This document shows positions 4,715 through 44,570 of a stretch of DNA of 64,000 nucleotides, piece by piece. The notes beneath the pieces are model-generated. The model did no database searches. It was not told the origin of the DNA and saw nothing but the letters and a program-made list of their open reading frames with translations. The position numbers were made by a program, and so were the translations under genes. The number at the start of each line of letters is the position of its first letter. Positions within the stretch are counted from its first letter, which is position 1. The stretch is from assembly GCA_019787685.1 (NCBI GenBank), contig JAHNUO010000006.1, positions 124,001 to 188,000 of the forward strand, given 5' to 3'. Source of the DNA: Chiua virens. Its lineage: Eukaryota > Basidiomycota > Agaricomycetes > Boletales > Boletaceae.

Positions 4715-5033
4715 ATCAGTTCTTGAAACCATGCGTCTAATAATTTCATGTCCGGGCTCAGCTTTGTCACAGTCTAGCTCAAGTCTAGCTGCCCGTTTCA
4801 TAACGAATGTCCCGAAGAACACGAGGCGCGGCGCGGCGCATCTTCGTCCCATTGTCGAGGAACGACGCAAGTACTTGAATGAATATGGAAGTGATTGACC
4901 GAAAACCCCGTTCGTGCGCCTCATTGACGGTCCACGGCGGCTCACATACATGTTCTCTTGTAGAACGACCTTTTATCTTGGTTGATGGATGGAGCTGGGT
5001 CAGACATCAGTGTGGAGATGTTAAATAATTTCC
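4715..5033 (+). pseudogene. Cytochrome P450 internal fragment, unit B
   Basis: The plus strand encodes a stretch typical of the middle of fungal P450s: an AARFITNVPKN-type segment, then LRPIVEERRKYLNEYGSD and an I-helix-like MDGAGSDI segment. In this copy the frame is broken after YGSD (one base lost before ACCG). Sequence then jumps at about 5024 to the last intron of the kinase, deleting the rest of the P450 and the kinase start. There is no N-terminal anchor or haem-binding Cys region. It is a dead fragment left by the duplication breakpoint. Confidence 0.7.
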
Positions 5034-5087
5034 TTTTGTCGTATACCTAGCAGTTCTTTGTCGGTACTGACGCTTATATACGTACAG

Positions 5088-5940
5088 TCCCTATCGGCCG
5101 CCAGAACTTCTTTTTGGTCCGCGGTCGTACGACGCCTTTGCCATCGATGTATGGAGCCTCGGAGTCACCTTGGCTGAATTCTTCACCTCGCTCCGTCTTC
5201 AGACGGACTCGGACTCGGACGACGAGGATCTCGCCCTTTTGAACCGTGCTGACGATGGAGAATCAGGGTCTGAGTCGAGCGCCGACTCGCCACGAGCATT
5301 CACCCCATCCCCAACGCCGTTCATCATCCCACGAGGAAATCGCCCACGTCCGGGCATACCGACGGGTAGGTGGACCCGGACGAGTCTATTCGATGCAACG
5401 CGCGGCGAGATCGGGCTCGCGTGGAGTATCTTTCGGGTGCGTGGCACACCGAACGAGAGCACGTGGCCGGTACGTCCTTCTCCCTACGTTATACATTTTA
5501 ACGCACTGACCACGTCCTTCACACGCCCAAACAAACAGTCGTTTCTGACCCTCCCGGATGCATCCAAGGTCTCCTTTGCCAATGTCGATGCAGTCGACTT
5601 GTCGTCGCGCCTTCCAAATCTCCCTCTGTCCACCTCGAGCATTCGACACGACACGACCACACACGTGCCAGTGCCAGACCCAGTTTCCTTCCCGCTCGAC
5701 CTCATTCACCGCTTCCTCGTGTACGAGCCTGCTCGCCGGCTCCGTCCCTCCGAGGCCCTCGGACATCCTTGGTTCAAAGCTGAGCCTGGGTTGGTGTTAC
5801 CCACAGATGCGGATCATATAGAGTATCCGTCGTGGGTAGCGGAGACGGGAACGGTGATGCGTACGTTCAACTTGGAAGGGAAAACGCGTACGGTCGGCGA
5901 TCTGTTGCAGATGCAGGGCATTGTCGGAAAGGAAATGTAG
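5088..5940 (+). pseudogene. CDK-like protein kinase C-lobe, 5'-truncated, unit B
   Basis: After an intron acceptor at 5087 the frame encodes PYRPPELLFGPRSYD and AIDVWSLGVTLAEFF (kinase subdomains VIII-IX). A long acidic/Ser-rich insert follows, then an intron at about 5464-5540 and the C-lobe end with LIHRFLVYEPARRLRPSEAL and GHPWFKAEPG. The APE-like PPE and the DVWSLG motif are typical of CDK/CMGC kinases; fungal csk1/CAK-like kinases are the closest family I can suggest. The N-lobe, HRD and DFG parts are missing here because of a deletion relative to unit C, so no active kinase can be made. Confidence 0.75.
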
Positions 5941-6440
5941 AAATTGCTTATTGGACGCGTGATCGCATCAAGGGTTGGTATGTGCATTCTAAAGCATAAG
6001 TAGGAGCTAGTGTCCTTCCAAGTGACGTCACACTCGATGCGTTTGAAACATATAAAACAGGAACTAGCGAGTAGTAAGTAGTGCATCATGAGGGAAAGTG
6101 TACCTGTCCGAGAGAGGGTGGATACATCGAAGAGTGAGATGGAGTTGGGTGTGGACTCGGCGAGCAGAGTTGCCGTCCGAGTCGACACATTGTATGACTT
6201 GACTTTCTTGTCCTATGTGTAGTGGTCCATGCAAGCCGGGTAGATAAATACTGCGACACTGTCTTGGTGTCAATGGTGAGCGCAATGTAATATCCGGTTG
6301 AAACTCGCCGTAAGAAGAGAAGATGCCCGGGAATCTTGGGCTCTCAATCGCGATCATACTCTGAGCAAATCACACCACGCTCGCCGTCAGAAAAGATGAG
6401 ACCCCGACGCCATGTTCTTGGTCGCCGTGTACTTAGACTG
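5941..6440. other. Intergenic, unit B: no gene seen
   Basis: The 500 bp after the kinase stop contain only short unsupported reading frames. The same stretch in unit C (27134-27590) differs by several small indels of mixed length, as expected for non-coding DNA. Confidence 0.5.
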
Positions 6441-8180
6441 ACAACTCTCTATTTCCCACAGTGATGACGAAGAGCGGAATGTTTTGGAACAGAGCGGTCT
6501 TCAAGCAGACCCGCAGCCAGCACATTGAAGGTGCCGAAGGTGAACGGCTCCCGTTGTAAGTCAATCCCACGGCCTGGTTTGAGAGCGAGCAGCAGGACGC
6601 TTGATGGGAAGAGACGTGGTCGACTTGGACAGATTCGAACTCCAAGGGTAGGTCACCGTACCATATTACAAGTCTCTCATCACGACTAACGCGTACACCA
6701 CTTGGCAACATGTCCATTCCCCCCGCGACTGGTCCTGACGTTGCTTACTCGGACCCTTATCAACTGTACAGCTCTGACGGCTCAAATACCTCCCCGTCGC
6801 CGTGTTCAATGCCAGCGATTGGCAACGATCTGTAGATCAATATCGGAAAGCAAAACGACACGGAGGCTCACTGGATCGATGAATCTGACATCTTGACATG
6901 GCCATTCTCCTGGTCCTGACCCTGTCTGTCTTTTCTCTACGCGCGCCTTACGGAGACACCCATACCTCCCCGTTGTTCACTATCACGTATCACCAATGTC
7001 GCTGGAATAATGTCAACAATCGATGTGCGGGGTGTATTGAAGCGGTTCGATGAAGCGAATATAGATGTCTTTTGGCTCGATATCGAGTATTCCGGCGGAC
7101 ACAGTACTTTATGTGGGACGAGAAGGCGTTCCCTGACTCCGGTCGAGATGGTTGTAGACGTCGAGGGCAAGCAGCAAAAGGTGCGTTTTAGTGATCGGAC
7201 TGTTGATGGTCTCAATTAGACACAAAGACAGTCATTATCATCGAACCCAGTCTCGAAGGCGAGTCCGACTATCCTGACTGCGTCTGGCATCGGCGTGCTT
7301 GTGAATCCCAAGTCGGGTGAATGTGAGCTCAGGGTAAGTGATGGTTTCGCTCTGACTCGTCGCGACAACCGATACGCGTGTCTTAGATAGGGTTGGCCCG
7401 GATATTCCTCATGGATCGACTTTTTCAAACCAAACAACTGGGATTTGTGGATCGAATCATCTAAGACCAAGAGTGCAGATGGCCCTGGAGCATGGACGCA
7501 GAGTTCGGAGAACGTGTGTATCAACAACACGAATGTGATTTGTCGCCTTTCTAGCTTTTTCTTTCCGATTTAAACGTCAATTTTTTAAGGCCTTTCACTT
7601 CGGTGATCAACGGTCCCGAGATCTCGATGTCAAGAGATAACGTCCATTAAGTATAGTGCAGTCAGTTGGGAGCACCGAGATGTGCATAGCATCAATGGCA
7701 TGCTTTCTTGGTAAATAGCAGGAAGAGCGAAGATGGTTCTTTCAGATGGGCTCGCTGGAGTATTTGCAGGGTGAACGTCCCATTGTTTTCTTTGCTACAG
7801 CTGGCATTTCTAACGCGTATTCTGAATCCTCTGTAGTAACCCCGAAACCGGGATGCTTGGGAGGCGTTACGGGATTGGTGTTATTCTCACCGTTCTTTCG
7901 AGCACATACGCACGTCGACGCGAACCGCCGCGAGCGGATGAGCCCTACAAGGGTATGACCAAAGACGTGTTGAAGTTGAGATAGGCGAGGTTGCTGATTT
8001 GGTAGAACAGTGTAACGGGAGTACCCATCCTCCGGTAGGTCTCTTGATCGTTATTTGCGGGACGAGTTTGGTGCTGATACGCATTCGTGACAGCTAGCCC
8101 ACAATACGTGCTGTCACCCGAGGACGAACAAGGCTTCGGAATTGATGATCCAATTTATCTCGGTGACAGCGAGGTGTGAC
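6440..8180 (+). pseudogene. GH31 alpha-glucosidase (glucosidase II alpha-like) relic, unit B
   Basis: Fragments in several frames follow the order of GH31 enzymes of the ER glucosidase II type. In order they are EETWSTWTDS, AYSDPYQLY, DTEAHWIDES, a YHQCRWN motif (about 6990), RFDEANIDVFWLDIEYS (7040-7090), PDPVEM-like, WPGYSSWIDFF-like (about 7390), NGPEIS plus a WEHRDVH-like segment (7600-7680), FFRAHTHVDANRRE (7890) and a DDPIYLGDSE-like segment (8140). Many stops and frameshifts separate them. At the expected nucleophile motif (NDMNE) the sequence reads NNTN, so the catalytic Asp is lost. Glucosidase II trims N-glycans in the ER; this copy cannot. Confidence 0.75.
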
Positions 8181-8723
8181 CCCTGCCTGCTAACTACTCA
8201 GATGCACAAGTTACTATGGCTATTTCTCATACGCGGCCATAGCATCGTTCATCCATGTTCCAAGTCCTGGCTGGGCCATCACTGTCCCAGCGGTCCTATT
8301 GATCCCGCAGACGGGACGGACCTTTCGTCGACACACGGCCATCGCGCTGCTCGACGGTGTACCGATGACGGAACCAGGACGCGAGTCAGTCGGCGGTGAT
8401 GAGGACTAGTGTGTCGATGGATCTTCAACCATTGGGGTTCGTAGTGGCTGGAGTACGAAGCGGACGGCTACCGTTGGTGTTACTGAGAGGCGAGGAGCGG
8501 GTGCGGTGGTGTCTGATAACTGATTGAGTATGGATATGTCAAAGTGCCGCGGTCGGGTCGAGAGAGAGAATGGTGTTGCCAAAGTCTTAGCCATGAGTAG
8601 TAAGCCAAGTAGTCAGCCAATGGAATTTGGAACGAAGTGGCTGAATGGTGTTGTGGGTTGTTGACACAGCTCTCCTCAGAATCTCTCTCATAGTCGACAC
8701 CGAGCTCACAGCAGCTAAGTACA
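8181..8723. other. Region between GH31 relic and GTPase, unit B
   Basis: It may hold further decayed GH31 C-terminal sequence up to about 8400, but I cannot align it with confidence. The last 120 bp before the GTPase start are the likely promoter; no TATA box stands out. Confidence 0.4.
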
Positions 8724-11700
8724 ATGAAAAGGTTTATAGCTCGCGCTCGCTTCTCGTGTTTTCGCTCCAAGGCTCCCGCGAGACCTTCCAGAGAATCTCT
8801 CGCAGAGCCACCCACAGAGCCTCTCGCAGAACCGTCCACGGAATCTCTCGCAGCGCCACTCGCAGAACCTCCCACAGAGCCACCCGCAGAACCTCTCGCA
8901 GGACCTTCCGCAGAATCTGTCGCAGAGCCACCCACAGAACCTCTCGCAGAACCGTCCACAGAACCTCTCGCAGGACCTTTTGCTGAATTTCCTGAGGAGT
9001 CATCCGCGGAACCTATTATGCAGATAGACGGCATCAGAAAGAAATTCGGGCGGTTCAGAATTCTCATCATAGGCCGAGCCAATGCCGGGAAGACTACCAT
9101 ACTTAAGCAAATCTGCAACTCCACGGAAGATCCAGTGATCTTTGATGGAGATGGGAATGAGGTATGCTCAAATGAGATGTCCGTGACGATGCGGGCGCAC
9201 TGATAGTCTGCGATCAGGTCGATCTAGCACAGATCCAGGAATCCCGGGACGTGAGTTAAATGGTTACCGTGAAGTCCTGATCAATAACAGTTTTCTAACA
9301 CGTCTCAAGCGCGGAATGCATAACATCGAGAACGAATTGGTCTTTCGAAGCAACCCAAGTTTTATCTTTCATGACTCACAGGGCTTCGAAGCTGGTAGCA
9401 TTGGCGAATTTGAACAGATGAAGGAGTTTGTTTCATCGCGTGCAAAGACAGCACACCTCAAGAAGCGAGTCCATGCTATATGGTAAGGAGAGATAGCAGG
9501 ATTTATGCCATGCTGACAATGACAACATTGTGACTGAACAGGTACTGTATTCCAATGGACCAGTACCACCGAGCTGTCTTGTCCGCTGAGGAAATGTTTT
9601 TCAATGAATGTGACACAGGGAGTGGTAAGTGCTCCTGATGGATGTATGAAGTTGTTTTTCTCATACTATTTGCAGTGCCTGTGGTACTTGTATTCACAAA
9701 ATGTGATGCACTGCTGATACAAGGGTTGGCAGCCTTGACACCTGAAGAACAGAAGCTTTGTCATGAGAGAAGGGTTGTGATTGGACAGCAGAATGCTGAG
9801 AGAATGCTGAAAGGAAATCCTACATGGGAGAGGGTACAAAAGATGAGGCATCCACCAAATGCATATGTGGAGTTAAGAGGTGTGTATGATATACATGTCT
9901 CATGGCCAAACTGATTGTAATGTACATAGAACTGCACAAGTCAAATGAGGGGTGCAAACTTCTCTTGAAAAGGACTGTGGGGGCCTTGGATGAAGAAGGA
10001 TTGCAGATGCTGCTTGTGACTACACAACACACAAACATGCTGCTTTGCATTGAGTATGGGTTTATGAGGTAATTTATATGGAGTTTGTGGATTATGGGTT
10101 ATATGTATTAAAGCATTTTACAGGGTCCTGATACCTTTCATTCAGGATATATATAAGAAGATGGGACCATTGGCAGATTCTGCACAGCAGATGTTGGTGG
10201 AAGGAATTGGATCATGGTTTCCACATGTTGAGGTGTGTGAATTTGTATGCAGTGAATGAGATCTGTAGTGAAAGAAATTGTTGTCCTATTCATAAAAGGT
10301 GAGACATTCTTGTGATTGTAAATGAGGATGCTGGATGATCTATGCCCTGCTGTGCTTGCCCCTGTCCTGCCATTCATAGGAAGTAAGTGCTCTGATTATG
10401 AATGGGGTTCCAGAAGGATGCTGATGCATGCCCCTCTGTGCTTTTCCCTGTCCTGCCATGCATAGTATGTAAGTGCTCTGATTGTGAATGGGGTTCCAGA
10501 AGGATGCTGATGCATGCCCCTCTGTGCTTGCCCCTGTCCTGCCATTCATAGGGAGTAAGTGCTCTGATTGTGAATGGGCTTCGAGAAGGATGCTGATGCA
10601 TGCCCCTCTGTGCTTGCCCCTGTCCTGCCATTCATAGCTTGTAAGTGCTCTGATTGTGAATGGGGTTCCAGAAGGATGCTGATGCATGCCCCTCTGTGCT
10701 TTCCCCTGTCCTGCCATTCATAGGGAGTAAGTGCTCTGATTGTGAATGGGGTTCCAGAAGGATGCTGATGCATGCCCCTCTGTGCTTTCCCCTGTCCTGC
10801 CATTCATAGCCAGTAAGTGCTCTGATTGTGAATGGGGTTCCAGAAGGATGCTGATGCATGCCCCTCTGTGCTTGCCCCTGTCCTGCCATTCATAGGGAGT
10901 AAGTGCTCTGATTGTGAATGGGGTTCCAGAAGGATGCTGATGCATGCCCCTCTGTGCTTGCCCCTGTCCTGCCATTCATAGTATGTAAGTGCTCTGATTG
11001 TGAATGGGGTTCCAGAAGGATGCTGATGCATGCCCCTCTGTGCTTTCCCCTGTCCTGCCATTCATAGTATGTAAATGCTCTGATTGTGAATGGGGTTCCA
11101 GAAGGATGCTGATGCATGCCCCTCTGTGCTTTCCCCTGTCCTGCCATTCATAGCTTGTAAGTGCTCTGATTGTGAATGGGGCTCCAGAAGGATGCTGATG
11201 CATGCCCCTCTGTGCTTGCCCCTGTCCTGCCATTCATAGGATGTAAGTGCTCTGATTGTGAATGGGGTTCCAGAAGGATGCTGATGCATGCCCCTCTGTG
11301 CTTGCCCCTGTCCTGCCATTCATAGCCAGTAAGTGCTCTGATTGTGAATGGGGTTCCAGAAGGATGCTGATGCATGCCCCTCTGTGCTTTCCCCTGTCCT
11401 GCCATTCATAGCTTGTAAGTGCTCTGATTGTGAATGGTGTTCCAGAAGGATGCTGATGCATGCCCCTCTGTGCTTGCCCCTGTCCTGCCATTCATAGCCA
11501 GTAAGTGCTCTGATTGTGAATGGGGTTCCAGAAGGATGCTGATGCATGCCCCTCTGTGCTTTCCCCTGTCCTGCCATTCATAGCCAGTAAGTGCTCTGAT
11601 TGTGAATGGGGTTCCAGAAGGATGCTGATGCATGCCCCTCTGTGCTTGCCCCTGTCCTGCCATTCATAGGGAGTAAGTGCTCTGATTGTGAATGGGGTTC

Positions 11701-14249
11701 CAGAAGGATGCTGATGCATGCCCCTCTGTGCTTTCCCCTGTCCTGCCATTCATAGCTTGTAAGTGCTCTGATTGTGAATGGGGTTCCAGAAGGATGCTGA
11801 TGCATGCCCCTCTGTGCTTGCCCCTGTCCTGCCATTCATAGCCAGTAAGTGCTCTGATTGTGAATGGGGTTCCAGAAGGATGCTGATGCATGCCCCTCTG
11901 TGCTTGCCCCTGTCCTGCCATTCATAGGATGTAAGTGCTCTGATTGTGAATGGGGTTCCAGAAGGATGCTGATGCATGCCCCTCTGTGCTTGCCCCTGTC
12001 CTGCCATTCATAGGGAGTAAGTGCTCTGATTGTGAATGGGGTTCCAGAAGGATGCTGATGCATGCCCCTCTGTGCTTGCCCCTGTCCTGCCATTCATAGC
12101 TTGTAAGTGCTCTGATTGTGAATGGGGTTCCAGAAGGATGCTGATGCATGCCCCTCTGTGCTTTCCCCTGTCCTGCCATTCATAGGGAGTAAGTGCTCTG
12201 ATTGTGAATGGTGTTCCAGAAGGATGCTGATGCATGCCCCTCTGTGCTTTCCCCTGTCCTGCCATTCATAGCTTGTAAGTGCTCTGATTGTGAATGGGGT
12301 TCCAGAAGGATGCTGATGCATGCCCCTCTGTGCTTTCCCCTGTCCTGCCATTCATAGGGAGTAAGTGCTCTGATTGTGAATGGGGTTCCAGAAGGATGCT
12401 GATGCATGCCCCTCTGTGCTTGCCCCTGTCCTGCCATTCATAGAGAGTAAGTGCTCTGATTGTGAATGGGGTTCCAGAAGGATGCTGATGCATGCCCCTC
12501 TGTGCTTTTCCCTGTCCTGCCATTTATAGTATGTAAGTGCTCTGATTGTGAATGGGGTTCCAGAAGGATGCTGATGCATGCCCCTCTGTGCTTTCCCCTG
12601 TCCTGCCATTCATAGGGAGTAAGTGCTCTGATTGTGAATGGGGTTCCAGAAGGATGCTGATGCATGCCCCTCTGTGCTTTCCCCTGTCCTGCCATTCATA
12701 GGGAGTAAGTGCTCTGATTGTGAATGGGGTTCCAGAAGGATGCTGATGCATGCCCCTCTGTGCTTGCCCCTGTCCTGCCATTCATAGTATGTAAGTGCTC
12801 TGATTGTGAATGGGGTTCCAGAAGGATGCTGATGCATGCCCCTCTGTGCTTTCCCCTGTCCTGCCATTCATAGCCAGTAAGTGCTCTGATTGTGAATGGG
12901 GTTCCAGAAGGATGCTGATGCATGCCCCTCTGTGCTTTCCCCTGTCCTGCCATTCATAGCTTGTAAGTGCTCTGATTGTGAATGGGGTTCCAGAAGGATG
13001 CTGATGCATGCCCCTCTGTGCTTGCCCCTGTCCTGCCATTCATAGGATGTAAGTGCTCTGATTGTGAATGGGGTTCCAGAAGGATGCTGATGCATGCCCC
13101 TCTGTGCTTGCCCCTGTCCTGCCATTCATAGCCAGTAAGTGCTCTGATTGTGAATGGGGTTCCAGAAGGATGCTGATGCATGCCCCTCTGTGCTTGCCCC
13201 TGTCCTGCCATTCATAGTATGTAAGTGCTCTGATTGTGAATGGGGTTCCAGAAGGATGCTGATGCATGCCCCTCTGTGCTTTCCCCTGTCCTGCCATTCA
13301 TAGCTTGTAAGTGCTCTGATTGTGAATGGGGTTCCAGAAGGATGCTGATGCATGCCCCTCTGTGCTTGCCCCTGTCCTGCCATTCATAGGGAGTAAGTTT
13401 TCTGACTGTGAATGAGCTTCCAGCAGGATCCTGATCTGTACTGTTTATCATAACTTCCTTCATAATGTCTATAATAGCTGGTATGTATTTCACTCCATTT
13501 AACTTCATTCATTATTTGACATTCTATAGGATGTAAGCATTTATATCTCCTTTGATTTTCAAATATTTTAATCCCTATTTATTTTGATTCATCAGATGGT
13601 ATGAGGAATTTCTCATTTTGCTTCATATGCCTTATGTTTTATAGGAGGTTTGTCATCTGTTGCATTTTTTGCAGTATAAGTAATGATATCAACTTCATAG
13701 ATTTTGCAGGCCTCTCATGTATGTTGATCCATTTTAGTCTTCTATTTAGTCTTCTGATTTTCTTTTTCAATCAATTAATATACAATATCCTCAGCCCTAT
13801 ATTCCTGTTCATCACAGTGCACTGGCAAGAAAGTGCACATCCATTGTGAGTATGATTTTATAATCCCAGTCTACCTACTGTTTTATTCCATAATTCAGTC
13901 TTCTTTGCAAGATGCTACTGCATGGCACACAGCACTTCATTTAGGCATTGGTCAGTTTTCTCAGTGCCAAATTCAGTAACTATCTCCATTAATATTTGTA
14001 GCCATTGCCATTATCCTGGAGCATTCATTCTTCTTACACCAGAAAGGTGTTCAAGACCCAATCATGGTAGCAACCCAGCTTTATGAATCATCTGAAACAA
14101 TCCACAAAGTCAAGAAAGCAGTCTCTGAGCTTATTTCTCAATATGACTTTGAGAATAGAGAGAAAATGGCAGAGCTCCTTTTGCATCTGATTTCTAAGAG
14201 TCTTATTTGTAAGTCATCTGCCCTTTTGGTCATCATGAACAACTTTTGA
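8724..14249 (+). CDS. P-loop GTPase (Agaricomycete G-domain family) with embedded micro-exon array, unit B
   Basis: Multi-exon gene. Residues about 24-97 are Pro/Glu/Ala-rich repeats (AEPPTEP, AEPSTES type). The G domain follows with P-loop GRANAGKT (about 117-124), then across introns an IENELVFRSNP segment, G3-like FHDSQGFEAG, IWYCIPMD, NECDTGS and the G4-like FTKCD. A helical part follows, ending in GSWFPHVE at about 10230. Next comes the 86-bp array (10380-13392), four diverged introns, and then exons giving VCHLLHFLQ, ALARKCTSI, DATAWHTALHLGI, IAIILEHSFFLHQKG and a C-terminal helix region to a stop at 14249. The gene may continue past a GTAAGTC donor at about 14210. This GTPase family is large in mushroom-forming fungi; its function is unknown to me. 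Exon borders are inferred from GT-AG sites and frame. Confidence 0.75.
10380..13392 (+). repeat. 86-bp tandem array: 83-nt introns alternating with 3-nt variable micro-exons, unit B
   Basis: There are 35 intervals of exactly 86 bp and 36 variable triplets, at 10380 + 86n. Each interval is GTAAGTG...CATTCATAG (83 nt), with a GCTGATG branch-like motif about 40 nt before the AG and a C/T-rich tract after it. The three bases between AG and GT vary: GGA 10, CTT 8, CCA 7, TAT 6, GAT 3, GAA 1, AGA 1. The intron body is almost constant; its main variant is G/T at intron position 62. If every intron is spliced, 36 codons are added in frame after GSWFPHVE (phase 0 donor at GAG/GTGTGT). If one intron is retained, a stop follows within it. 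Confidence 0.85.
13393..13718 (+). other. Diverged introns with single-codon exons, 3' flank of array, unit B
   Basis: Past the last 86-bp unit the same pattern continues in unrelated AT-rich sequence. An 85-nt intron (13393-13477) is followed by CTG; a 49-nt intron (13481-13529) by GAT; a 63-nt intron (13533-13595) by ATG; a 46-nt intron (13599-13644) by an exon starting GAG. That last exon can run 29 nt (13645-13673, E-VCHLLHFLQ) into a 36-nt intron and a 9-nt exon. Each intron has a GT donor (GTAAGT, GTATGT, GTAAGC, GTATGA) and a TAG or CAG acceptor. Confidence 0.65.
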
Positions 14250-15411: not shown

Positions 15412-16973
15412 CAGTGAGCAACAAAACCGTTCCAATAACTAACCCTGACGCAGTGCGCTTCGCGCACTGCAAACACCTGTGGGAATCTCGCTTAGTAGTA
15501 GTGGGACCAAATGATGTACAAACTCTTGGCTACAAATCGGTCCCTGGGTCATGTGATTTGGCCCAGGGGTGGTGGAGATATAACCATTTTAAATCACTCA
15601 TGTCATTGGAACAGTTTTGTTGCTGATATTAGGGGTATTGCAAATTAGTATGAAGTGTATCCTCCTTTGGCCTTGATGACCTCCTGAACCCTTCTAGGCA
15701 TGCTCTCAATCAATCTCTGACACTCCCCAACCTCAATCTTGTACCACTTTTCCTGAATCCTCTCCCAAAGTTCCAATACCCCCTTGGCTGGCTCAGGATA
15801 TTCTGCAAGCCTTCTTTTGAGGAGAAACCATAGATGTTCTATGGGGTTAAGGTCTGGAGACTGAGCAGGCCATACCATGACCTCATATCCATGCTCTTTC
15901 AACCACTCCTTGGCCCTCCTACTGGTATGTTTGGGGTCATTATCCTGCTGGAAAATAATGTCCTCTGGGGTAAATCCATAATCCACAAGGGTTTTTTGGA
16001 GTTCATTCTCCAAAATCTGCACATAAAGGTTAGCATCCATCTTACCATCAATCCTACAAGCCATCCCAACACCTTCCCAGGTCATACAACCCCATAACAT
16101 GACTGATCCTCCTCCAAACTTGACTGTACCCTCCACAAGTCTATCACTGAGGCCCTCTCCTGGCTTTTTCCATGCCCATTTCCTACCATCTGACCATATA
16201 ACTCGCTTCCAATCATCCACAGTCCAGTCCTGATGGCTCAAAGCAAAATCTAATCTTTCTCTCCTATGGCGCTTGGAAAGAAGAGGGCATTTCTTCTTTA
16301 CTACAGCCTTCATACCAGCTTTCTTCAAGTGACGACGGATGGTCTGGGAAGAGATGGGATGGTTCTTGACATCCTGAAGAGTCTTGGTGACCTGAACAGC
16401 ATTTTCAGCCTTTCCAGTACCAAGAAGTCGAATGGCATGTTGCATATCAGTGGGAGAAATGATGGATGGACGACCACCAGTGGCTTTGGGAAGGTTGGGA
16501 CAGTGTTCAGTGCGAATACGACTGATGGTAGAGTTACTGAATCCAGTAGAAGTGGAGATCTGACAAGTTGTTTGACCCAATTCCAAGAAAGCAATAACTT
16601 GGTTGATTTGATCAGTGGAAAGGGATTTCATGGTGAAAGAAGTGATAAAAGGAATGGTGTTTGGCTGTGTTTATGTCTTGTTGAACTGTTTATCCATCAC
16701 ATGACTCAATGCTGACATAATATCCCAGTGCAACATATGAGTTCTGTGTTTCAATATGACAGCAACAAAACTGTTCCAATGACATGAGTGATTTAAAATG
16801 GTCATATCTCTACCACCCCTGGGCCAAATCACATGACCCAGGGACCGATTTGTAGCCAAGAGTTTGTACATCATTTGGTCCCACTACTACTAAGCGAGAT
16901 TCCCACAGGTGTTTGCAGTGCGCTTCGCGCACTGCATCAGGGTTAGTTATTGGAATGGTTTTGTTGCTCACTG
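15412..16973. mobile_element. Tc1/mariner element, unit B copy
   Basis: A 1562-bp element flanked by a TA target duplication (15410-15411 and 16974-16975). It has 214-bp terminal inverted repeats at 15412-15625 and 16760-16973, beginning CAGTGAGCAACAAAAC. Each repeat carries a near-perfect palindrome, GCAGTGCGC/GCGCACTGC. Unit C has an uninterrupted TA at the matching place (35641-35642), so this copy inserted after the segmental duplication. Confidence 0.95.
15645..16631 (-). CDS. Tc1/mariner DD34E transposase with internal 10-residue deletion
   Basis: A 328-residue open frame. An N-terminal HTH region (DQINQVIAFLELGQ, then a second HTH ending in TIRRHLKKAGM) is followed by the DDE core: VIWSD, FQQDNDPKHTS and SPDLNPIEHLW, with 34 residues between the second D and the E. 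Compared with the unit C copy, 30 bp are missing right after VIWSD. This removes the ETKINRIGSD segment, probably by recombination between the two -SD- sites. The frame is kept, but a conserved strand next to the first catalytic Asp is lost, so activity is doubtful. Confidence 0.85.
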   Translation of the reverse strand: MKSLSTDQINQVIAFLELGQTTCQISTSTGFSNSTISRIRTEHCPNLPKATGGRPSIISPTDMQHAIRLLGTGKAENAVQVTKTLQDVKNHPISSQTIRRHLKKAGMKAVVKKKCPLLSKRHRRERLDFALSHQDWTVDDWKRVIWSDGRKWAWKKPGEGLSDRLVEGTVKFGGGSVMLWGCMTWEGVGMACRIDGKMDANLYVQILENELQKTLVDYGFTPEDIIFQQDNDPKHTSRRAKEWLKEHGYEVMVWPAQSPDLNPIEHLWFLLKRRLAEYPEPAKGVLELWERIQEKWYKIEVGECQRLIESMPRRVQEVIKAKGGYTSY

Positions 16974-16975
16974 TA

Positions 16976-17907
16976 ATTGTAACAAAGGCCATCAGCTAAT
17001 AGAGATCAAGGAGATTACTAATGGAGGAGTGGAGATGAGTAAGGGTCTGAGTAATACAGGAGGCAGGAAAATAAATAACTGGATATAGTTGGATATGTGT
17101 GAATGCCATAGTTGTGCTCCTAAGTACAGTAGTATATATGTATATGTACATAAACCCCAAGACACTCCAGAACACTTCAGTTAAATCCTCTTGGAAATTC
17201 CCTATCTGTTCTCAGCAGGAGTTGCCAATGACTGCTTTGCTCATCTTCTGTTAGAGATCATGCAACTTGGAGGTAGCCAACTCTAGATCTCTGGAGTTGT
17301 AGTGTTGGACAGGACTTGGCTTCACCATGTGTGGTGTGCCCTTGTCACAGTCTGTCCCTGTATTTACGGATGTGCAGAGAATGGAGGTTGAAGTAGGACT
17401 CAACACATAAAGTGGAGTTGAGCAGAGTAAAGACTGTCAAGGACGTCTTGGAGTGTTTGGAGTGAGTCATAGAAATAAACTAATATTCAGACTGAAGTTA
17501 CAATTGAAGTAACTATGATTTATATACTTGGAGGAAACAGAATGATTAGTCACAGAGCAAGGAGATGAATAATACAGAGAAATGGAGAATGACTAAATGC
17601 TGAGTGAGACAGATATCAGGAAGCTACATAACTGGAGGTAATTTGGGTACTGAGGAAGCTGGAGCTGTGCTTGTAAGTGAGACACAGGTTTATGTACTAA
17701 ACAAAAAGAGAAAACATATATACATAACAGAAGTCCAGGGTCACAGAGTTGCATCCTGAGGGAGATCGACCCAGAGTTAATGTCTAAGATGGACAGAGTT
17801 GCATCTGGAGGAACGGAGACAGAAATGGTATATGACATCTTCACTCTTCTACATCATTCAGTAAGTCTTGATCACAACAACTTACATAACTCTTAACCAA
17901 GTTTGGG
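16976..17907. other. Non-coding stretch, unit B, with empty Tc1 site
   Basis: No gene seen. At 17408-17409 (ACACATAAAG) lies the uninterrupted TA that in unit C holds the second Tc1 insertion (36067-37658). A short AT microsatellite near 17140 differs in length between units. Confidence 0.6.
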
Positions 17908-18204
17908 TTGTTTCACTGTGGATATACATGTAAGAAGCAGTCTGGGGACTCAATTATACATTATAGCCTCATTCAAGTTGAGCTTTGCCAATTTGAAGCA
18001 GACAGGAGTGGACATGAACACCATTTCAATATCAAAGGATGGAACATGGGTAATTTGTGGAATGCAAGATGGGGCAAGCATTTGGGACATCAACTTGCTG
18101 TCAATGTGGAACATGGATACTGGTACAGGCAGCAGATGTTGTCACTTCAAGTTGACTTGGAGAAAGGCATTTTGGCTTACCCTCCAAGGCTTGAAATGTT
18201 CTAA
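17908..18204 (+). CDS. Unknown ORF or last exon, unit B
   Basis: I do not recognise this. The frame ends LEKGILAYPPRLEMF then stop. The unit C counterpart (38157-38423) lacks 36 bp yet keeps the same frame and stop, which weakly suggests coding or former coding sequence. It lies at the end of the CpG-poor domain, 140 bp from the converging SMC4 stop. It could be a distal exon of the GTPase or another gene's relic. Confidence 0.25.
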   Translation: MFHCGYTCKKQSGDSIIHYSLIQVELCQFEADRSGHEHHFNIKGWNMGNLWNARWGKHLGHQLAVNVEHGYWYRQQMLSLQVDLEKGILAYPPRLEMF

Positions 18205-18344
18205 CCACAATCACAGGGCATATCACACGTAGGCATCATTACAAGTCATCACAAGTGATATCAACATACAATGCATCTAGCAATACACAAAACGAACAGG
18301 AACGCAAGAAACACCGCGGGTACAGAAAAGTAGCAACATTCCAG

Positions 18345-21300
18345 TTATGGGCGCGATGCAGGAGAGGTAGTGACCGTAGGCGGCATGGTCTTGACCGGAA
18401 CGAGAGCGCGATTATCGATCGCAATACCTAGCGACGGATCAGTATGCGTAGAGAAGAGAAAGCTAGTGCGAGCGTACTCTGAGTCGCATTTGCGGTCTTG
18501 TAAATACCGATCAACCGATGGCTCAGTTCAAACATATCATTTCTGCCAGATGTCAGAGGGCGCGACAAGAGTAAAGAGGGATCCACGAACCTCAGGGAGA
18601 TGATAATGAACTGTGCGTTTTTGGTCCGATCTTTGATGTAGTTGGCAACGATCGACACGTTGCGGAAGTCGAGCGCAGCGTCGATCTCGTCCATAAAGTA
18701 CAGAGGAGTTGGCTACAGACAGCGGGGTGGACCGTCGGTACCTTTATGCACGCACAACCATGGCGCTTACCTTGAAGACGTGCAGTGCAAACACGAGGGC
18801 CAGAGAACTAAGAGTCTACAGATACGTGAGTTTTTGACAGCAACGAGACTGGATGTAACCTACCTTTTCACCACCGGAGAGATTAGAGATATTTTTCCAG
18901 CTCTTCTTGGGTGGCATCACGCTGAAGATGATCCCTTCCGAAAACGGATCCATGCTGTCCACCAGCTCCAGTTCCGCATTCCCTCCAAGGGTGATCATCT
19001 ATCCGAAAGTAGAGTCACACTCGCGTGCTTCAGGAACGAATCGAAACACGAACCTGATACATCTCCTTGAGTTTCAAAGAGATCATATTAAAGCCGGCCA
19101 TGAACTCGTCCAAACGCTGCTTCCTGAGATTATCGTACTTTTGTTTCTGTGCGTCGCGGGCATCAGTGATCCGATCGAGGTCTTTAGCACGACGGAGAAA
19201 CTCTTCTTCGCGTTTCTTGTAATCCTTGAGTACGGTCAAGTCAGGCTTGGCGCTGCTCAGTTTTTCTATTGCGTGGAGGTCAGGACGGAATTGCGGCAGG
19301 GAGGATGAACTACTCACCGTCCAGATACTCGGAGTCAGCGACTAGGTCGCGCTTTCGGAATTGAGTGAGTTCGTCGACGCTGTAGATGTGCAACTCGTTT
19401 GAGGATTCATGTTTTGATGGTTTCTTGGGTGGCGGGTCTCCTGATTCCCGTTTGACCTGCGGTTCGGGGGGCTCACCGTCTACTGGTGCTGCCTCTGCCT
19501 CGTCCTCGTCCTCGTCGTCGCTACATTCCTGTATCAGTCAAGTGCTCAGAAAACTCCAGGGAAACTCACTCGATCTCCTCTAGCCTCAGCTTATCGTGCT
19601 CCAGTTGCCAGTGCTGCAGCGCATCCTCGTTCTCATTGGCCTCCTTTTTCACATCGTTTAGCTTCTGCGTCAACTCCATCTAACCGAGACATCAGGACGT
19701 TCGTGCGCGATATCTAAATCATACATACCTCTTTTTTTCTGAATTCTTGTATCTCTTCCCGCTTCTCCTCCAGCTGCGTCTTGAGTGCGTCCAAGTCGTC
19801 CCTCGAATGCTCCGCTGCCGTTTGCGCAGCTTCTACCTTGAGCTTGAGCTTCTCCAAGTACTCGCCCACCTCCTCCAGCTGCGTTTCCAGTTGCTTGATC
19901 TCCTCGTCCGCCTCTGCCACAACAATGGTGTTCCCCTTGATTGCTGACGCGTGCTTAACCACGTCCTTTTCAGCCTTGGCTTTCCCCACCTCCGCTTTCG
20001 TGATCTCGTCGTTGGCGAGGTTGATGTATAGCTTGATACCGTCGACGGTGGAACGTTGTTTGAGCAGTCGCGATCCACCAATATCGAGGATCTTCTTCTC
20101 GAGCTCCTTGATCGCGTCCTCGATTTTGCCCGATTTTCCCTGGAGTTCCTCTAGCTCGGCCGTCGCGGACGCAATCTCCCCTTCGAGGGCCTCGATCCGT
20201 GCCATGTCCCGAGCATCGGGCTTGCTCTGCGCCCTAATATGGTAAACCAATGAGCGCTCCGGTTCAACGCCAACAGAAACAAGAAAAAGCACGTCAAGCG
20301 ATGAGAGGTATACGCACCTGAGGTCACGCACCCGCTTCTCTGCCTCCTCGAGTCGCTTCCGTCCGTTATTCACTGCCATCGTCAGCTTCTCCACGTCCAT
20401 GTCTAGCTGCGGTCCTGAGAGTGCCAACCTCTCGCCCTCGCCCTCCAATGCCCTAAGCGCTCTGATCGTTTCTTCGAGCTCCCTTGCTGCAGTGTCACTT
20501 TCTTGTTCAAACTGCCTCAGCACCTCTGGCCTGACCACATCCGCTGCCAACCTAGAGCTCATCGCCCCGCGCGCGACATGGTTCCCACCACCCGACATCG
20601 TACCCGACGCATCGATCAGCTGGCCCGCGAGCGTGACGACACGCCACCGCCTCGAACCACCGAACGCGATCCGGTTAGCCTGCTCTAGATCGTCTGCGAC
20701 GAGCGTGTTCCCAACAGCCTTGTAAAACGCCGGTAAGAACTTGGGATCTTTAGGCTTGATGAGGTCATATAGCCGCGGGATATTTTCGGGCGTCTGGATA
20801 CGTTCGTGAATGCGGTCGGAAGGAAGCTTCTCGAGGACCATGAAGGAAGCGCGACCGACGTTTTGCGACCGGAGAAAGTCGATGCAGGCTTGTCCCTGAG
20901 CCACGGTGTCGACGACCATATTGTGGAGTGCACCACAAGCAGTAGAGATCGCGACGTCGTACTTGTCAGGAATCGTACCGAGAGTGCCTAGGCGACCCTA
21001 CAGGAACCCTGATTCTGCATATCTGAAAGGTAAGGAACAGAAAGTACGTACGTGGAAACCGTCGATGCGCCCGGTCTGCTTGAGACGGGTGAGGGAATCA
21101 AGAACCTTGTTTTGCGATGTACTGGCCGCTTGAGATGCCTTGGCTTCCTCGGTTCTCTGTCGAAGAGAGGACGATTTGCCCCGCAATTCTTGTGCCTGTG
21201 CCTGAGCAGCCTGCAAACACGAACGGTCGTGAGTGAGTGATGGCGTGTCGCGTAGGTTACGAGCGCGTACATGGAAGTTCTTCTCGTGAGCCTGCAGTTC

Positions 21301-24290: not shown

Positions 24291-24344
24291 TGGTCAATGA
24301 CAATGTTACTTGGTTGACTCTGAGCGACGCGAGATGCTACACGT

Positions 24345-24363
24345 CATGTGATTCAATCACATG
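24345..24363. promoter_or_regulatory. 19-bp inverted repeat upstream of SMC4 (unit B)
   Basis: Same CATGTGATT/AATCACATG inverted repeat as in units A and C. Confidence 0.4.
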
Positions 24364-24842
24364 ATCTCGAATAATGTGTATCCGCCTTCGTCCGCCCGAC
24401 CAACCCCATCCACCTTTTCTATTTCTTCCCTATTCACGATCGCGAGATGTTTATCATCCCCCTTCTCCTCACCTACGACAGGAAACACCTCCTCAACAGT
24501 CTCGCACAAGCCTTGATGTCTCCCACCGGAATAATCAACCAAAACACCCCACCCATTTCACCATCCGTCTCACGCATGCTCGGGATGATATACAACATCC
24601 GCCGCGAGCACTACGTCATACCCGCCCACTTCCTTGACCAAGGCACACCGGTCGAGCTTCTCGACAAACACCCTTACCGCGCTTCGGTTTTGCCGCAGGT
24701 TCTGGGCGAGGTTCTCCAGTACGCTCGGGTGGTAATCCGTCGTTTTGATAGAGACTCGCAGAGACGTCCGAGAGAAGATCTGGGACGCCGTGATGCTGAG
24801 TAGCCCTGTCCCTGCGCCGAGCTTGAGGACTCGACGTTGACG
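24357..24842 (-). pseudogene. Methyltransferase C-terminal fragment, unit B
   Basis: Equivalent to 4213-4714. It contains the SAM motif (KLGAGTGLLS, with Glu changed to Lys) and DVVLAADVVYHPEHA, and ends at the breakpoint into antisense P450 sequence. A small deletion near 24365 removes the normal C-terminal residues, and another near 24560 breaks the frame. Confidence 0.85.
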
Positions 24843-27133: not shown

Positions 27134-27589
27134 AAAATGCTTATTGGACGCGTGATCGCATCAAGGGTTGGTATGTACATTCTAAAGCATAAGTAGGAGC
27201 TAGTGTCCTTCCAAGTGACGTTACACACAATGCGTTTGAAACATATAAAACAGGAGTAGACGAACTAGCGAGTAGTAGTGGATCAGGAGGGAAAGTGTAC
27301 CTGTCTGAGAGAGGGTGGATGCATCGAAGAGTGAGATGTGTGGACTCGGCGAGTAGAGTTGCCGTCCGAGTCGACACATCGTATGACTTGACTTTCTTGT
27401 CGCTACATGTATGGTGGTCCATGCAAGCCGGTGGCATACTGCGACACTGTCTTGGTGTCAATGGTGAGCAGTGTGTCCGGTGAAACTCACCGTAAGAAGA
27501 AAAGATGCCAATCTTGGGCTCTCAATCGCGATCATACTCTGAGCAAATCACACCACGCTCGCCAGAAACGACGAGACCCCGACGCTGCA
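27134..27589. other. Intergenic, unit C: no gene seen
   Basis: Counterpart of 5941-6440, with several indels relative to it and no supported reading frame. Confidence 0.5.
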
Positions 27590-29335: not shown

Positions 29336-29876
29336 CTGCCTGCTAACTACTCAGATGCACAAGTTACTATGCCTATTTCTCATACGCGGCCATAGTATCG
29401 TTCATCCATGTTCCAAGTCCTGGCTGGGCCATCACTGTCCCAGCGGTCCTATTGATCCCGCGGACGGGATGGACCTTTCGTCGACACATGGCCATCGCGC
29501 TGCTCGACGGTGTACCGATGACGGAACCAGGACGCGAGTCAGTCGGCGGTGATGAGGACTAGTGTGTCGATGGATCTTCAACCATTGGGGTTCGTAGTGG
29601 CTGGAGTACGAAGCGGACGGCTACCGTTGGTGTTACTGAGAGGCGAGGAGCGGGTGCGGTGGTGTCTGATAACTGAATGAGTATGGATATGTCAAAGTGC
29701 CGCGGTCGGGTCGAGAGAGAGAATAGTGTTGCCAAAGTCTTAGCCATAAGTAGTAAGCCGAGTAGTCAGGCAATGGAATTTGGAACGAGGTGGCTGAATG
29801 GTGTTGTGGGTTGTTGACACAGCTCTCCTCAGAATCTCTCTCATAGTCGACACCGAGCTCACAGCAGCTAAGTACA
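29336..29876. other. Region between GH31 relic and GTPase, unit C
   Basis: No convincing gene. It is the counterpart of 8181-8723 and includes the presumed GTPase promoter. Confidence 0.4.
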
Positions 29877-32800
29877 ATGAAAAGGTTTATAGCTCGCGCT
29901 CGTTTTCCGTGGTTTCGCTCCAAGGCTCCCGCGAGACCTTCCACAGAATCTGTCGCAGAGCCACCCACAGAGCCTCTCGCAGAACCGTCCACGGAATCTC
30001 TCGCAGCGCCACTCGCAGAACCTCCCATAGAGCCACCCGCAGAACCTCTCGCAGGACCTTCCGCAGAATCTGTCGCAGAGCCACCCACAGAACCTCTCGC
30101 AGAACCGTCCACAGAACCTCTCGCAGCGCCACCCGCAGAACCTCTCGCAGGACCTTTTGCTAAATTTCCTGAGGAGTCATCCGCGGAACCTATTATGCAG
30201 ATGGACGGCATCAGAAAGAAATTCGGGCGGTTCAGAATTCTCGTCATAGGCCGAGCCAATGCCGGGAAGACTACGATACTTAAGCAAATCTGCAACTCCA
30301 CGGAAGATCCAGTGATCTTTGATGGACATGGGAATGAGGTATGCTCAAATGAGATGTCCGTGACGATGCGGGCGCACTGACAGTCTGCGATCAGGTCGAT
30401 CTAGTACAGATCCAGGAATCCCGGGACGTGAGTTAAATGGTTACCGTGAAGCCCTGATCAGTAACATTTTTCTAACACGTCTCAAGCGCGGAATGCATAA
30501 CATCGAGAACGAATTGGTCTTTCGAAGCAACCCAAATTTTATCTTTCATGACTCACAGGGCTTCGAAGCTGGTAGCATCGGCGAATTTGAACAGATGAAG
30601 GAGTTTGTTTCATCGCGTGCAAAGACAGCACACCTCAAGAAGCGAGTCCATGCTATATGGTAAGGAGAGATAGCAGGATTTATGCCACGCTGACAATGAC
30701 AACATTGTGACTGAACAGGTACTGTATTCCAATGGACCAGTACCACCGAGCTGTGTTGGCTGCTGAGGAAATGTTTTTCAATGAATGTGACACAGGGAGT
30801 GGTAAGTGCTCCTGATGGATGTATGAAGTTGTTTTTCTCATACTATTTGCAGTGCCTGTGGTACTTGTATTCACAAAATGTGATGCACTGCTGATACAAG
30901 GGTTAGCAGCCTTGACACCTGAAGAACAGAAGCTTTGTCATGAGAGAAGGGTTGTGATTGGACAGCAGAATGCTGAGAGAATGCTGAAAGGAAATCCTAC
31001 ATGGGAGAGGGTACAAAAGATGAGGCATCCACCAAATGCATATGTGGAGTTAAGAGGTATGTATGATATACATGTCTGATGGCCAAACTGATTGTAATGT
31101 ACATAGAACTGCACAAGTCAAATGAGGGGTGTAAACTTCTCTTGAAAAGGACTGTGGGGGCCTTGGATGAAGAAGGATTGCAGATGCTGCTTGTGACTAC
31201 ACAACACACAAACATGCTACTTTGCATTGAGTATGGGTTTATGAGGTAATTTATATGGAGTTTGTGGATTATGGGTTATATGTATTAAAGCATTTTACAG
31301 GGTCCTGATACCTTTCATTCAGGATATATATGAGAAGATGGGACCATTGACAGATTCTGCACAGCAGATGTTGGTGGAAGGAATTGGATCGTGGTTTCCA
31401 CATCTTCAGGTGTGTGAATTTGTATGCAGTGAATGAGATCTGTAGTGAAAGAAATTGTTGTCCTATTCATAAAAGGTGAGACATCCGTGTGATTGTAAAT
31501 GAGGATGCTGGATGATGTATGCCCTGCTGTGCTTGCCCCTGTCCTGCCATTCATAGGAAGTAAGTGCTCTGATTGTGAATGGGGTTCCAGAAGGATGCTG
31601 ATGCATGCCCCTCTGTGCTTGCCCCTGTCCTGCCATTCATAGGGAGTAAGTGCTCTGATTGTGAATGGGGTTCCAGAAGGATGCTGATGCATGCCCCTCT
31701 GTGCTTGCCCCTGTCCTGCCATTCATAGTCAGTAAGTGCTCTGATTGTGAATGGGGTTCCAGAAGGATGCTGATGCATGCCCCTCTGTGCTTGCCCCTGT
31801 CCTGCCATTCATAGTCAGTAAGTGCTCTGATTGTGAATGGGGTTCCAGAAGGATGCTGATGCATGCCCCTCTGTGCTTGCCCCTGTCCTGCCATTCATAG
31901 TATGTAAGTGCTCTGATTGTGAATGGGGTTCCAGAAGGATGCTGATGCATGCCCCTCTGTGCTTGCCCCTGTCCTGCCATTCATAGGATGTAAGTGCTCT
32001 TAATGTGAATGGGGTTCCAGAAGGATGCTGATGCATGCCCCTCTGTGCTTGCCCCTGTCCTGCCATTCATAGGGTGTAAGTTTTCTGACTGTGAATGGGG
32101 TTCCAGAAGGATGCTGATGCATGCCCCTCTGTGCTTGCCCCTGTCCTGCCATTCATAGCTTGTAAGTGCTCTGATTGTGAATGGGGTTCCAGAAGGATGC
32201 TGATGCATGCCCCTCTGTGCTTGCCCCTGTCCTGCCATTCATAGTATGTAAGTGCTCTGATTGTGAATGGGGTTCCAGAAGGATGCTGATGCATGCCCCT
32301 CTGTGCTTGCCCCTGTCCTGCCATTCATAGTATGTAAGTGCTCTGATTGTGAATGGGGTTCCAGAAGGATGCTGATGCATGCCCCTCTGTGCTTGCCCCT
32401 GTCCTGCCATTCATAGCGAGTAAGTGCTCTGATTGTGAGTGGGGTTCCAGAAGGATGCTGATGCATGCCCCTCTGTGCTTGCCCCTGTCCTGCCATTCAT
32501 AGCCAGTAAGTGCTCTGATTGTGAATGGGGTTCCAGAAGGATGCTGATGCATGCCCCTCTGTGCTTGCCCCTGTCCTGCCATTCATAGTCAGTAAGTGCT
32601 CTGATTGTGAATGGGGTTCCAGAAGGATGCTGATGCATGCCCCTCTGTGCTTGCCCCTGTCCTGCCATTCATAGCTTGTAAGTGCTCTGATTGTGAATGG
32701 GGTTCCAGAAGGATGCTGATGCATGCCCCTCTGTGCTTGCCCCTGTCCTGCCATTCATAGCCAGTAAGTGCTCTGATTGTGAATGGGGTTCCAGAAGGAT

Positions 32801-34480
32801 GCTGATGCATGCCCCTCTGTGCTTGCCCCTGTCCTGCCATTCATAGTATGTAAGTGCTCTGATTGTGAATGGGGTTCCAGAAGGATGCTGATGCATGCCC
32901 CTGTGTGCTTGCCCCTGTCCTGCCATTCATAGGATGTAAGTGCTCTGATTGTGAATGGGGTTCCAGAAGGATGCTGATGCATGCCCCTGTGTGCTTGCCC
33001 CTGTCCTGCCATTCATAGCGAGTAAGTGCTCTAATTGTGAATGGGGTTCCAGAAGGATGCTGATGCATGCCCCTCTGTGCTTGCCCCTGTCCTGCCATTC
33101 ATAGCGAGTAAGTGCTCTGATTGTGAATGGGGTTCCAGAAGGATGCTGATGCATGCCTCTCTGTGCTTGCCCCTGTCCTGCCATTCATAGCCAGTAAGTG
33201 CTCTGATTGTGAATGGGGTTCCAGAAGGATGCTGATGCATGCCCCTCTGTGCTTGCCCCTGTCCTGCCATTCATAGGGAGTAAGTGCTCTGATTGTGAAT
33301 GGGGTTCCAGAAGGATGCTGATGCATGCCCCTCTGTGCTTGCCCCTGTCCTGCCATTCATAGCCAGTAAGTGCTCTGATTGTGAATGGGGTTCCAGAAGG
33401 ATGCTGATGCATGCCCCTCTGTGCTTGCCCCTGTCCTGCCATTCATAGTCAGTAAGTGCTCTGATTGTGAATGGGGTTCCAGAAGGATGCTGATGCATGC
33501 CCCTCTGTGCTTGCCCCTGTCCTGCCATTCATAGGGAGTAAGTGCTCTGATTGTGAATGGGGTTCCAGAAGGATGCTGATGCATGCCCCTCTGTGCTTGC
33601 CCCTGTCCTGCCATTCATAGGGTGTAAGTTTTCTGACTGTGAATGAGCTTCCAGCAGGATGCTGATCTGTACTGTTTATCATAACTTCCTTCATAATGTC
33701 TATAATAGCTGGTATGTATTTCACTTCATTTAACTTCATTCATTATTTGACATTCTATAGGATGTAAGCATTTATATCTCCTTTGATTTTCAAATATTTT
33801 AATCCCTATTTATTTTGATTCATCAGACGGTATGAGCAATTTCTCATTTTGCTTCATATGCCTTATGTTTTATAGGAGGTTTGTCATCTGTTGCATTTCT
33901 TGCAGTATAAATAATGATATCAACTTCATAGATTTTGCAGGCCTCTCATGTATGTTGATCCATTTTAGTCTTCTATTTAGTCTTCTGATTTTCTTTTTCA
34001 ATCAATTAATATACAATATCCTCAGCCCTATATTCCTCTTGATCACAGTGCACTGGCAAGAAAGTGCACATCCATTGTGAGTATGATTTTATAATCCCAG
34101 TCTACCTACTATTTTATTCCATAATTCAGTCTTCTTTGCAAGATGCTACTGCATGGCACACAGCACTTCATTTAGGCATTGGTCAGTTTTCTCAGTGCCA
34201 AATTCAGTAACTATCTCCATTAACATTTGTAGCCATTGCCATTATCCTGGAGCATTCATTCTTCTTACACCAGAAAGGTGTTCAAGACCCAATCATGGTA
34301 GCAACCCAGCTTTATGAATCATCTGAAACAATCCACAAAGTCAAGAAAGCAGTCTCTGAGCTTATTTCTCAACATGACTTTAAGGATAGAAAGAAAATGG
34401 CAGAGCTCCTTTTGCATCTGATTTCTAAGAATCTTATTTGTAAGTCATCTGCCCTTTTGGTCATCATGAACAACTTTTGA
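29877..34480 (+). CDS. P-loop GTPase with embedded micro-exon array, unit C
   Basis: Near-identical paralogue of the unit B gene: Pro/Glu-rich N-terminal repeats with a longer repeat block than in B, P-loop GRANAGKT, FHDSQGFEAG, FTKCD, and the helical region to GSWFPHLQ at about 31408. Then come the 86-bp array with only 25 triplets, the diverged introns, and the C-terminal exons (SSLQDATAWHTALHLGI, IAIILEHSFFLHQKG) to 34480. Differences from B in the conserved exons are few and mostly single substitutions (for example LAAEEMF against LSAEEMF), so both copies may still be expressed. The array content is completely different. Confidence 0.75.
31557..33623 (+). repeat. 86-bp intron/micro-exon array, unit C
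   Basis: There are 24 intervals of 86 bp with 25 triplets at 31557 + 86n: TAT 4, CCA 4, TCA 4, GGA 3, CGA 3, CTT 2, GAT 2, GGT 2, GAA 1. TCA, CGA and GGT do not occur in unit B, and AGA occurs only in B. All intron bodies carry the G variant at position 62. Interval 7 (after the GGT at 32073) begins GTAAGTTTTCTGACTG, the form otherwise seen only in the terminal intron of each array, which looks like a gene-conversion patch. Confidence 0.85.
33624..33950 (+). other. Diverged introns with single-codon exons, 3' flank of array, unit C
   Basis: Same layout as 13393-13718. The single codons are CTG (33709-33711), GAT, ACG (33827-33829, ATG in unit B) and an exon starting GAG. The one difference between units in the codons is M/T. 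Confidence 0.65.
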
Positions 34481-37658: not shown

Positions 37659-37660
37659 TA

Positions 37661-38423: not shown

Positions 38424-38556
38424 CCACAATCACAGGGCATATCACACGTAGGCATCATTACAAGTGATATCAACATACAATGCATCTAGCAATACACATA
38501 AAACGAACAGAAACGCAAGAAACACCGCGCGTACAGAAAAGTAACAACATTCCAGT

Positions 38557-44515: not shown

Positions 44516-44570
44516 TGGTCAATGACTTAATGTTACTTGGTTGACTCTGAGCGACGCGAGATGCTACACG

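Follow-up and report, generated by a model that had tools for sequence, protein, structure and literature searches.

Several described gene systems approach, each in its own way, the gene design that we propose here for the bolete Chiua virens. The HNWD/NWD allorecognition genes of Podospora carry WD40 repeats of variable number that undergo concerted evolution, with a few codons under positive selection (PMC1805685). The PRDM9 zinc-finger coding minisatellite is likewise built of homogenised units that vary at few codons (PMC3890296). Schistosoma micro-exon genes contain many exons of 3-81 bp each, separated by long introns, and encode variable proteins (PMC10526429). A single-nucleotide exon in Fusarium CYP621A illustrates that ultra-small exons are spliced in fungi (PMC12940212), and the sister stwintrons of Hypoxylon are repeated, near-identical fungal introns that are removed by stepwise splicing (PMC9024468). 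Both ultra-small exons and homogenised hypervariable coding repeats are already known.

Each system shares some features with the Chiua arrays and differs in others. Like the Podospora genes, the Chiua arrays belong to fungal nucleotide-binding proteins with near-identical, homogenised repeats of changing number; the entire Podospora repeat, however, is coding and folded, whereas the Chiua repeat is a predicted intron plus one codon. PRDM9 shares homogenised minisatellite units with few variable codons, but its unit is a 28-residue zinc finger, whereas 3 of the 86 bp of a Chiua unit are predicted to be coding. The Schistosoma genes offer 3-bp exons, many exons per gene, and variable proteins; their exon lengths are mixed and their introns long, and the abstract of that account mentions no tandem repetition of a single intron with exons that are uniformly one codon long. 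Fusarium CYP621A has one conserved, invariable exon per gene in place of variable arrays. The Hypoxylon stwintrons resemble the Chiua arrays in their near-identical repeated introns, but they are nested and the whole intervening sequence is removed with no codons between, whereas in Chiua predicted codons stand between the introns. Searches of an open-access library, from which most subscription papers and preprints are missing, turned up no paper on exons of one codon arranged in tandem. As far as those searches reach, a gene built on an array of one-codon exons has no precedent.

The array genes of the window

Our window is a stretch of 64,000 nucleotides (C6:124001-188000) in the 48.3-Mb Chiua virens genome. 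The predicted parts of its first array gene, and the array of its tandem paralog, are as follows.

8724..9161, forward strand: predicted first coding exon, a Pro/Glu-rich repeat followed by the GTPase P-loop GRANAGKTT (open frame from 8724, donor at 9162)
9930..10068, forward strand: predicted conserved exon ELHKSNEGC...EYGFM, read from the sequence and used as the family marker
10124..10232, forward strand: predicted final pre-array exon, ending ...GSWFPHVE in phase 0 (translation of 10125-10232, donor at 10233)
10233..10379, forward strand: predicted first intron of the array region, 147 nt, outside the exact repeat (read from the sequence)
10380..13392, forward strand: array 1, 36 predicted one-codon exons with 35 introns of 83 nt between them, reading EYGLGPGYYLDPLPPGLPDGLGLGRYGGYPLDPYLG
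13478..13480, forward strand: predicted one-codon exon CTG behind array 1 (AG before, GT after)
13530..13532, forward strand: predicted one-codon exon GAT (AG before, GT after)
13596..13598, forward strand: predicted one-codon exon ATG
13645..13647, forward strand: predicted one-codon exon GAG
13710..13718, forward strand: predicted exon of three codons, ASH; several paralogs have an identical or similar 9-nt spacer
13795..13845, forward strand: predicted exon PYIPVHHSALARKCTSI
13899..13950, forward strand: predicted exon SSLQDATAWHTALHLGI, frame set by comparison with another array locus, L038
14002..14208, forward strand: predicted conserved C-terminal exon AIAIILEHSFFLHQ..., open once joined to the two preceding exons
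31557..33623, forward strand: array 2, belonging to the tandem paralog, with 25 predicted exons of one codon each, reading EGSSYDGLYYRPSLPYDRRPGPSGG

Used as a query, the conceptual protein of the window gene matches Chiua virens protein P0001 at 90% over 63% of its length. The sole domain that Pfam identifies in the array-gene protein is a G domain of MMR_HSR1 type, which scores at or close to the cut-off. The EHSF motif of the C-terminal exon recurs in many aligned relatives.

An initial annotation of this DNA had read 36 triplets at exact 86-bp spacing, and this stands: the triplets lie at 10380, 10466 ... 13390, every step is 86 bp, and Tandem Repeats Finder returns a period of 86, 36 copies, and 95% matches. 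Its statement that each triplet is flanked by the same motifs was slightly too strong, as the exact upstream motif CATTCATAG precedes 34 of the 36 and exact GTAAGTG follows 34 of the 36. The near-invariance that it ascribed to the 83-nt bodies is real: 10 intron columns vary across 35 units; nine of these differ in no more than two units, and the tenth, column 65, is a T/G site split 17:18. The triplet was rightly singled out as the changing part, its mean per-site diversity being 47 times that of the intron, but column 65 means that it is not the sole variable place. The annotation captured array 1 and missed a family of 68 loci, the second array of the window, and what look like four further one-codon exons behind array 1 (13478-13647). 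Array 2 sits in a tandem copy ~21 kb from array 1; the two arrays have their modal 83-nt intron in common but not their codon string.

Positions 1-45137 of the window form a tandem segmental duplication of ~20 kb, 95-97% identical, in which 17408-24842 pairs with 37659-45137 and 5030-12489 with 26223-33666. The duplication carries the array genes together with copies of other genes; one that looks like a lysine methyltransferase gene (Methyltransf_16) lies at 44571-45908, and another gene of the duplicated region presumably resembles an SMC protein. A Tc1/mariner-type transposase ORF (HTH_Tnp_Tc3_2, DDE_3) lies beside array gene 1 on the reverse strand (15645-16631), and a shorter copy of it lies beside array gene 2 (36300-36791, reverse strand). 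The GTPase N-terminus contains a Pro/Glu-rich 12/24-bp coding repeat (AEPxxEPLAEP; 8788-8979 and 29941-30150), the length of which differs between the copies; it is a second, ordinary coding minisatellite. Farther along, the stretch IQPGDTCWDLTRRYN... of a reverse-strand ORF (56103-56585) has what we take to be a resemblance to a LysM motif.

Spacing and coding signal across the family

Genome-wide, the pattern TTCATAG-NNN-GTAAGTG is found 1,420 times and the reversed control pattern once, which excludes chance; a strict intron pattern matches at 1,205 sites. At other distances the same two motifs meet once at 0-2 nt and four times at 4-30 nt (12 for the reversed control). Within the array sequence that we examined, all 790 donors found within 20 nt of an acceptor motif lie 3 nt from it, while 90 acceptor motifs have no donor in range.

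A genome search with the pre-array exons returned 132 exon matches, which we tallied as 68 GTPase-family loci. Arrays are present in all 31 loci examined out of these 68; 21 of the 31 had been chosen by protein match alone, and the rest either lie in the window or match the intron pattern. The fragment L015 was examined beyond this set. The smallest array has 6 triplets (L010), and the largest, L035, has 75 divided between two runs. Four array genes follow one another within 60 kb (C6:98049, 117572, 133929, and 155106), each with a codon string of its own. Our counts leave out L030, which has the same 49 triplets as L029, together with 28 spacers of a length other than 3 nt; nine or so of these are the constant or similar 9-nt exon, and further ones are found at the edges of arrays. 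L038 was added after the count of 966 triplets had been made and is not part of it. The 3-nt spacing persists even in old arrays, and the sole array seen with 5-nt and 2-nt spacings (C2:2027656 and C2:2027744) has a sum that does not restore the frame.

The triplets carry a coding signal in a single phase. Phase 0 holds 2 stops in 966 triplets (31 arrays), against 10 and 71 in the other phases and a mean of 62 (range 43-79) in shuffles of the codon columns, and 2 of 277 array-codon types are stops versus 18.9 (8-31) from shuffles; because the shuffles treat codon columns as independent, these tests of selection are not clean. The 33 TRR triplets that precede GTAAGTG genome-wide comprise 28 TGG, 5 TGA, and no TAA or TAG, and the final triplet of the L037 array is TAA. 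Even aged arrays, in which every intron is distinct (46/46 in L029, 45/45 in L034), have triplets that are still free of stops. In 29 of 32 arrays the end of the preceding exon is compatible with phase 0, and the other three lack the motif; this agrees with the annotation's placement of the triplets behind a phase-0 donor. Its central proposal, that each unit is an intron plus a one-codon exon, draws support from this upstream phase, from the 3-nt spacing and phase-0 openness that these counts establish, and from the peptide strings of relatives described below.

If splicing proceeds as we infer, the arrays resemble micro-exon genes at the sequence level, in that several of their exons are much shorter than is usual and as small as 3 nt. 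No intron breaks the splice signal of another, as in a stwintron; donor and acceptor ends are complete, with 3 nt between them.

Codon usage approaches one codon per amino acid (GGA for 178 of 186 Gly, CTT for 168 of 187 Leu, TAT for 92 of 93 Tyr), and individual arrays use small alphabets of their own: mostly Q/E/R/L in L035, A/R/G/L/E/Q in L033, and W/G/R/E/F in L014. Rare codons one step off common ones comprise 14 synonymous, 83 nonsynonymous, and 1 stop, against expectations of 30.4, 57.6, and 9.9; splicing constraints may account for part of this pattern, the rarity of synonymous change included.

Intron homogenisation and codon turnover

In many arrays, but not in the aged ones, the units are homogenised as they are in HNWD and PRDM9. 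The introns of L018 are identical in 26 of 27 cases (2 distinct), yet its triplets include eight codon types; those of L020 are identical in 28 of 30 (3 distinct), and one modal intron is common to four paralogs. Variation is focused on few codon positions in all 28 of 28 arrays, the ratio of triplet to intron diversity exceeding 1 in each (median 19, lowest 1.6). No folded protein repeat corresponds to the unit, which presents one codon between splice-site-like ends.

These ratios bear directly on whether the arrays could be neutral minisatellites inside a long intron, with the triplets skipped and absent from the mRNA. The tandem structure speaks for such a reading. Diversity is not spread over the unit in any of the 28 arrays but concentrated in the triplet, a pattern on which we rejected this explanation, as the annotation had on the same ground; moreover, stops are avoided in one phase only, the 3-nt spacing is kept even in old arrays, and some intronless contigs of relatives encode peptide strings at the same site. 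We regard a neutral origin as very improbable.

Paralogs within the one genome differ in unit number, and their codon strings turn over. Our comparison took in 12 pairs of paralogs whose upstream flanks match at 96% or more. One pair, L029 and L030 on contigs C46 and C9, shares the same 49-codon array between flanks 99.7-99.8% identical and is a haplotig or a very recent copy. Nine of the other 11 pairs have codon strings inside the shuffle range. Among these nine are the two window genes, whose flanks are 96.5 and 98.6% identical and whose score is 4 against a shuffle mean of 5.7. Residual likeness was detected for L018/L020 (flanks 99.6%; score 16 versus a shuffle maximum of 12) and weakly for L012/L013 (equalled by 4 of 100 shuffles).

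Such turnover sits poorly with an invasion in which copies of one intron, for example by reverse splicing, entered a low-complexity coding stretch at every codon boundary. The identical or similar introns of each array, the exact codon boundaries, and the coding triplets would all follow from it. Array length and codon order nevertheless differ between paralogs that have an intron in common and flanks identical at 96-99%, so that repeated rewriting rather than a single invasion would be needed, and phase 0 alone is affected. We give intron invasion scarcely any credence.

Inside the arrays, codon blocks recur in excess, as unequal exchange would predict (97 repeated 3-mers versus 64.2 expected; 4 repeated 6-mers versus 0.3). 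Intron homogenisation in many arrays, codon turnover between paralogs, and this block excess are direct observations. Clear periodicity of codon identity was not found at lags 1-8. Linkage between intron SNPs and codons is weak: of 50 tests, 4 fell below 0.05 (p 0.004 to 0.044), which hardly exceeds chance. Intron SNPs that are mostly unlinked to codons fit frequent recombination, and they also fit a dedicated mutator that targets the triplet, as in diversity-generating systems, and leaves the introns identical; the eight codon types of L018 amid its near-identical introns speak for the mutator as well. On the other side stand the near-single codon per amino acid, the scarcity of stops and synonymous codons, and the presence of the same codons in L038 despite a very different intron, which together point to the reshuffling of old units rather than to fresh random mutation. 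We know of no mutator of this kind in eukaryotes, and we consider one improbable here.

Relatives and the proposed mechanism

The best 120 of 980 protein matches include Boletus, Imleria, Suillus, Pisolithus, Rhizopogon, Tylopilus, and other boletes; a protein search with region 268-435 of the window gene itself found no relative. Some intronless contigs of 1.1-2.3 kb (JGI, Logan) encode protein through the array position, and judged by their size and the absence of introns they are likely transcripts, since the Chiua gene has several introns in that region. Small-alphabet strings follow directly after the invariant WFP in P0114 (WFPHIWARYYYDDVRDLDVLDLLRDLDVLLLLKRE), P0131 (EYFYGGFFRGDFFYGGFRAEYGDRYFYDRPYAYRS), and P0101 (a Q/E/R/Y string), and in complete proteins such strings precede the C-terminal part. 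Of 21 JGI or Logan proteins, 13 were tested for entropy and 8 inspected by eye. The lowest-entropy 25-residue window of the entire protein lies directly behind WFP in 6 of the 13 (5 if the near-copies P0129 and P0130 count as one); the array position is not singled out in the other 7, nor in any of the 6 NCBI models tested. Among the 8 JGI proteins inspected, 3 lack WFP and 5 end 5-38 residues past it, with no clear small-alphabet string. On this evidence, some transcripts of relatives likely carry small-alphabet peptides at the array position. In the Suillus plorans model P0132 the translation continues through repeated units, each made of a single residue and a further 22 residues that begin VSVSI, which fits GTAAGTGTC..., and Suillus probably also has one-codon arrays.

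An AlphaFold model of P0114 built from 20 sequences (mean pLDDT 77, pTM 0.50) shows a G domain and long helices. Most residues of its string (298-317) fall below pLDDT 50, and in this model the string is a disordered or unpredictable loop. In a fold search, IRG, EngB, and septin tie, and the part of the model beyond residue 253 is poorly covered.

We think it probable that each triplet is a one-codon exon, spliced in phase 0 into a low-complexity peptide, that the introns act as homology handles, and that selection keeps the codons diverse. The spliceosome would remove every 83-nt intron and join the triplets as single codons; splicing must be assumed to proceed stepwise, because splice sites 3 nt apart are hard to use simultaneously. 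The joined codons would form a fast-changing, low-complexity peptide of up to ~75 residues, placed after the GTPase part of the G-domain protein and ahead of its conserved C-terminal part. Near-identical introns would serve as handles for unequal crossing-over or gene conversion, an exchange that would shuffle, add, or lose units by one codon or a few while homogenising the introns of the array, and selection would maintain a diverse, stop-free codon string. Splicing in Chiua, recombination, and diversifying selection are each read from sequence here.

The one-codon exons might instead be joined in variable combinations, so that each gene yields many peptides. Donors and acceptors are alike within an array, so that skipping would remain in frame, and the pair P0129/P0130, which differ by an in-frame block of 17 residues that looks like a retained intron, suggests imperfect splicing; constant skipping, however, would leave the order of the codons of little matter. 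We hold such alternative splicing to be unlikely, if the least unlikely of the alternatives, and retain one-codon exons spliced in succession as our preferred reading.

The four Chiua NCBI models that we examined (P0001, P0002, P0003, and P0005) end before or just at the array; gene prediction seems to have missed the arrays, and similar peptides may for this reason be absent from other proteomes. By analogy with the Podospora HNWD genes, our guess is that the peptides have a recognition role in allorecognition or defence. More tentatively than for the exon reading itself, we suggest that boletes may use introns as handles for recombination between codons, and that this splicing-based, codon-by-codon shuffling may furnish ~68 immune-like GTPase loci with hypervariable recognition peptides; it would be the counterpart, at the level of codons, of gene-segment diversity. 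If true, these genes have an extreme structure, with dozens of successive one-codon exons and ~1,400 such exons in this one genome, and their arrays would test the way in which the spliceosome copes with splice sites separated by 3 nt. A genome so organised could reshuffle a protein residue by residue, because recombination needs a longer match than a bare codon offers, and 83 identical flanking bases supply it.
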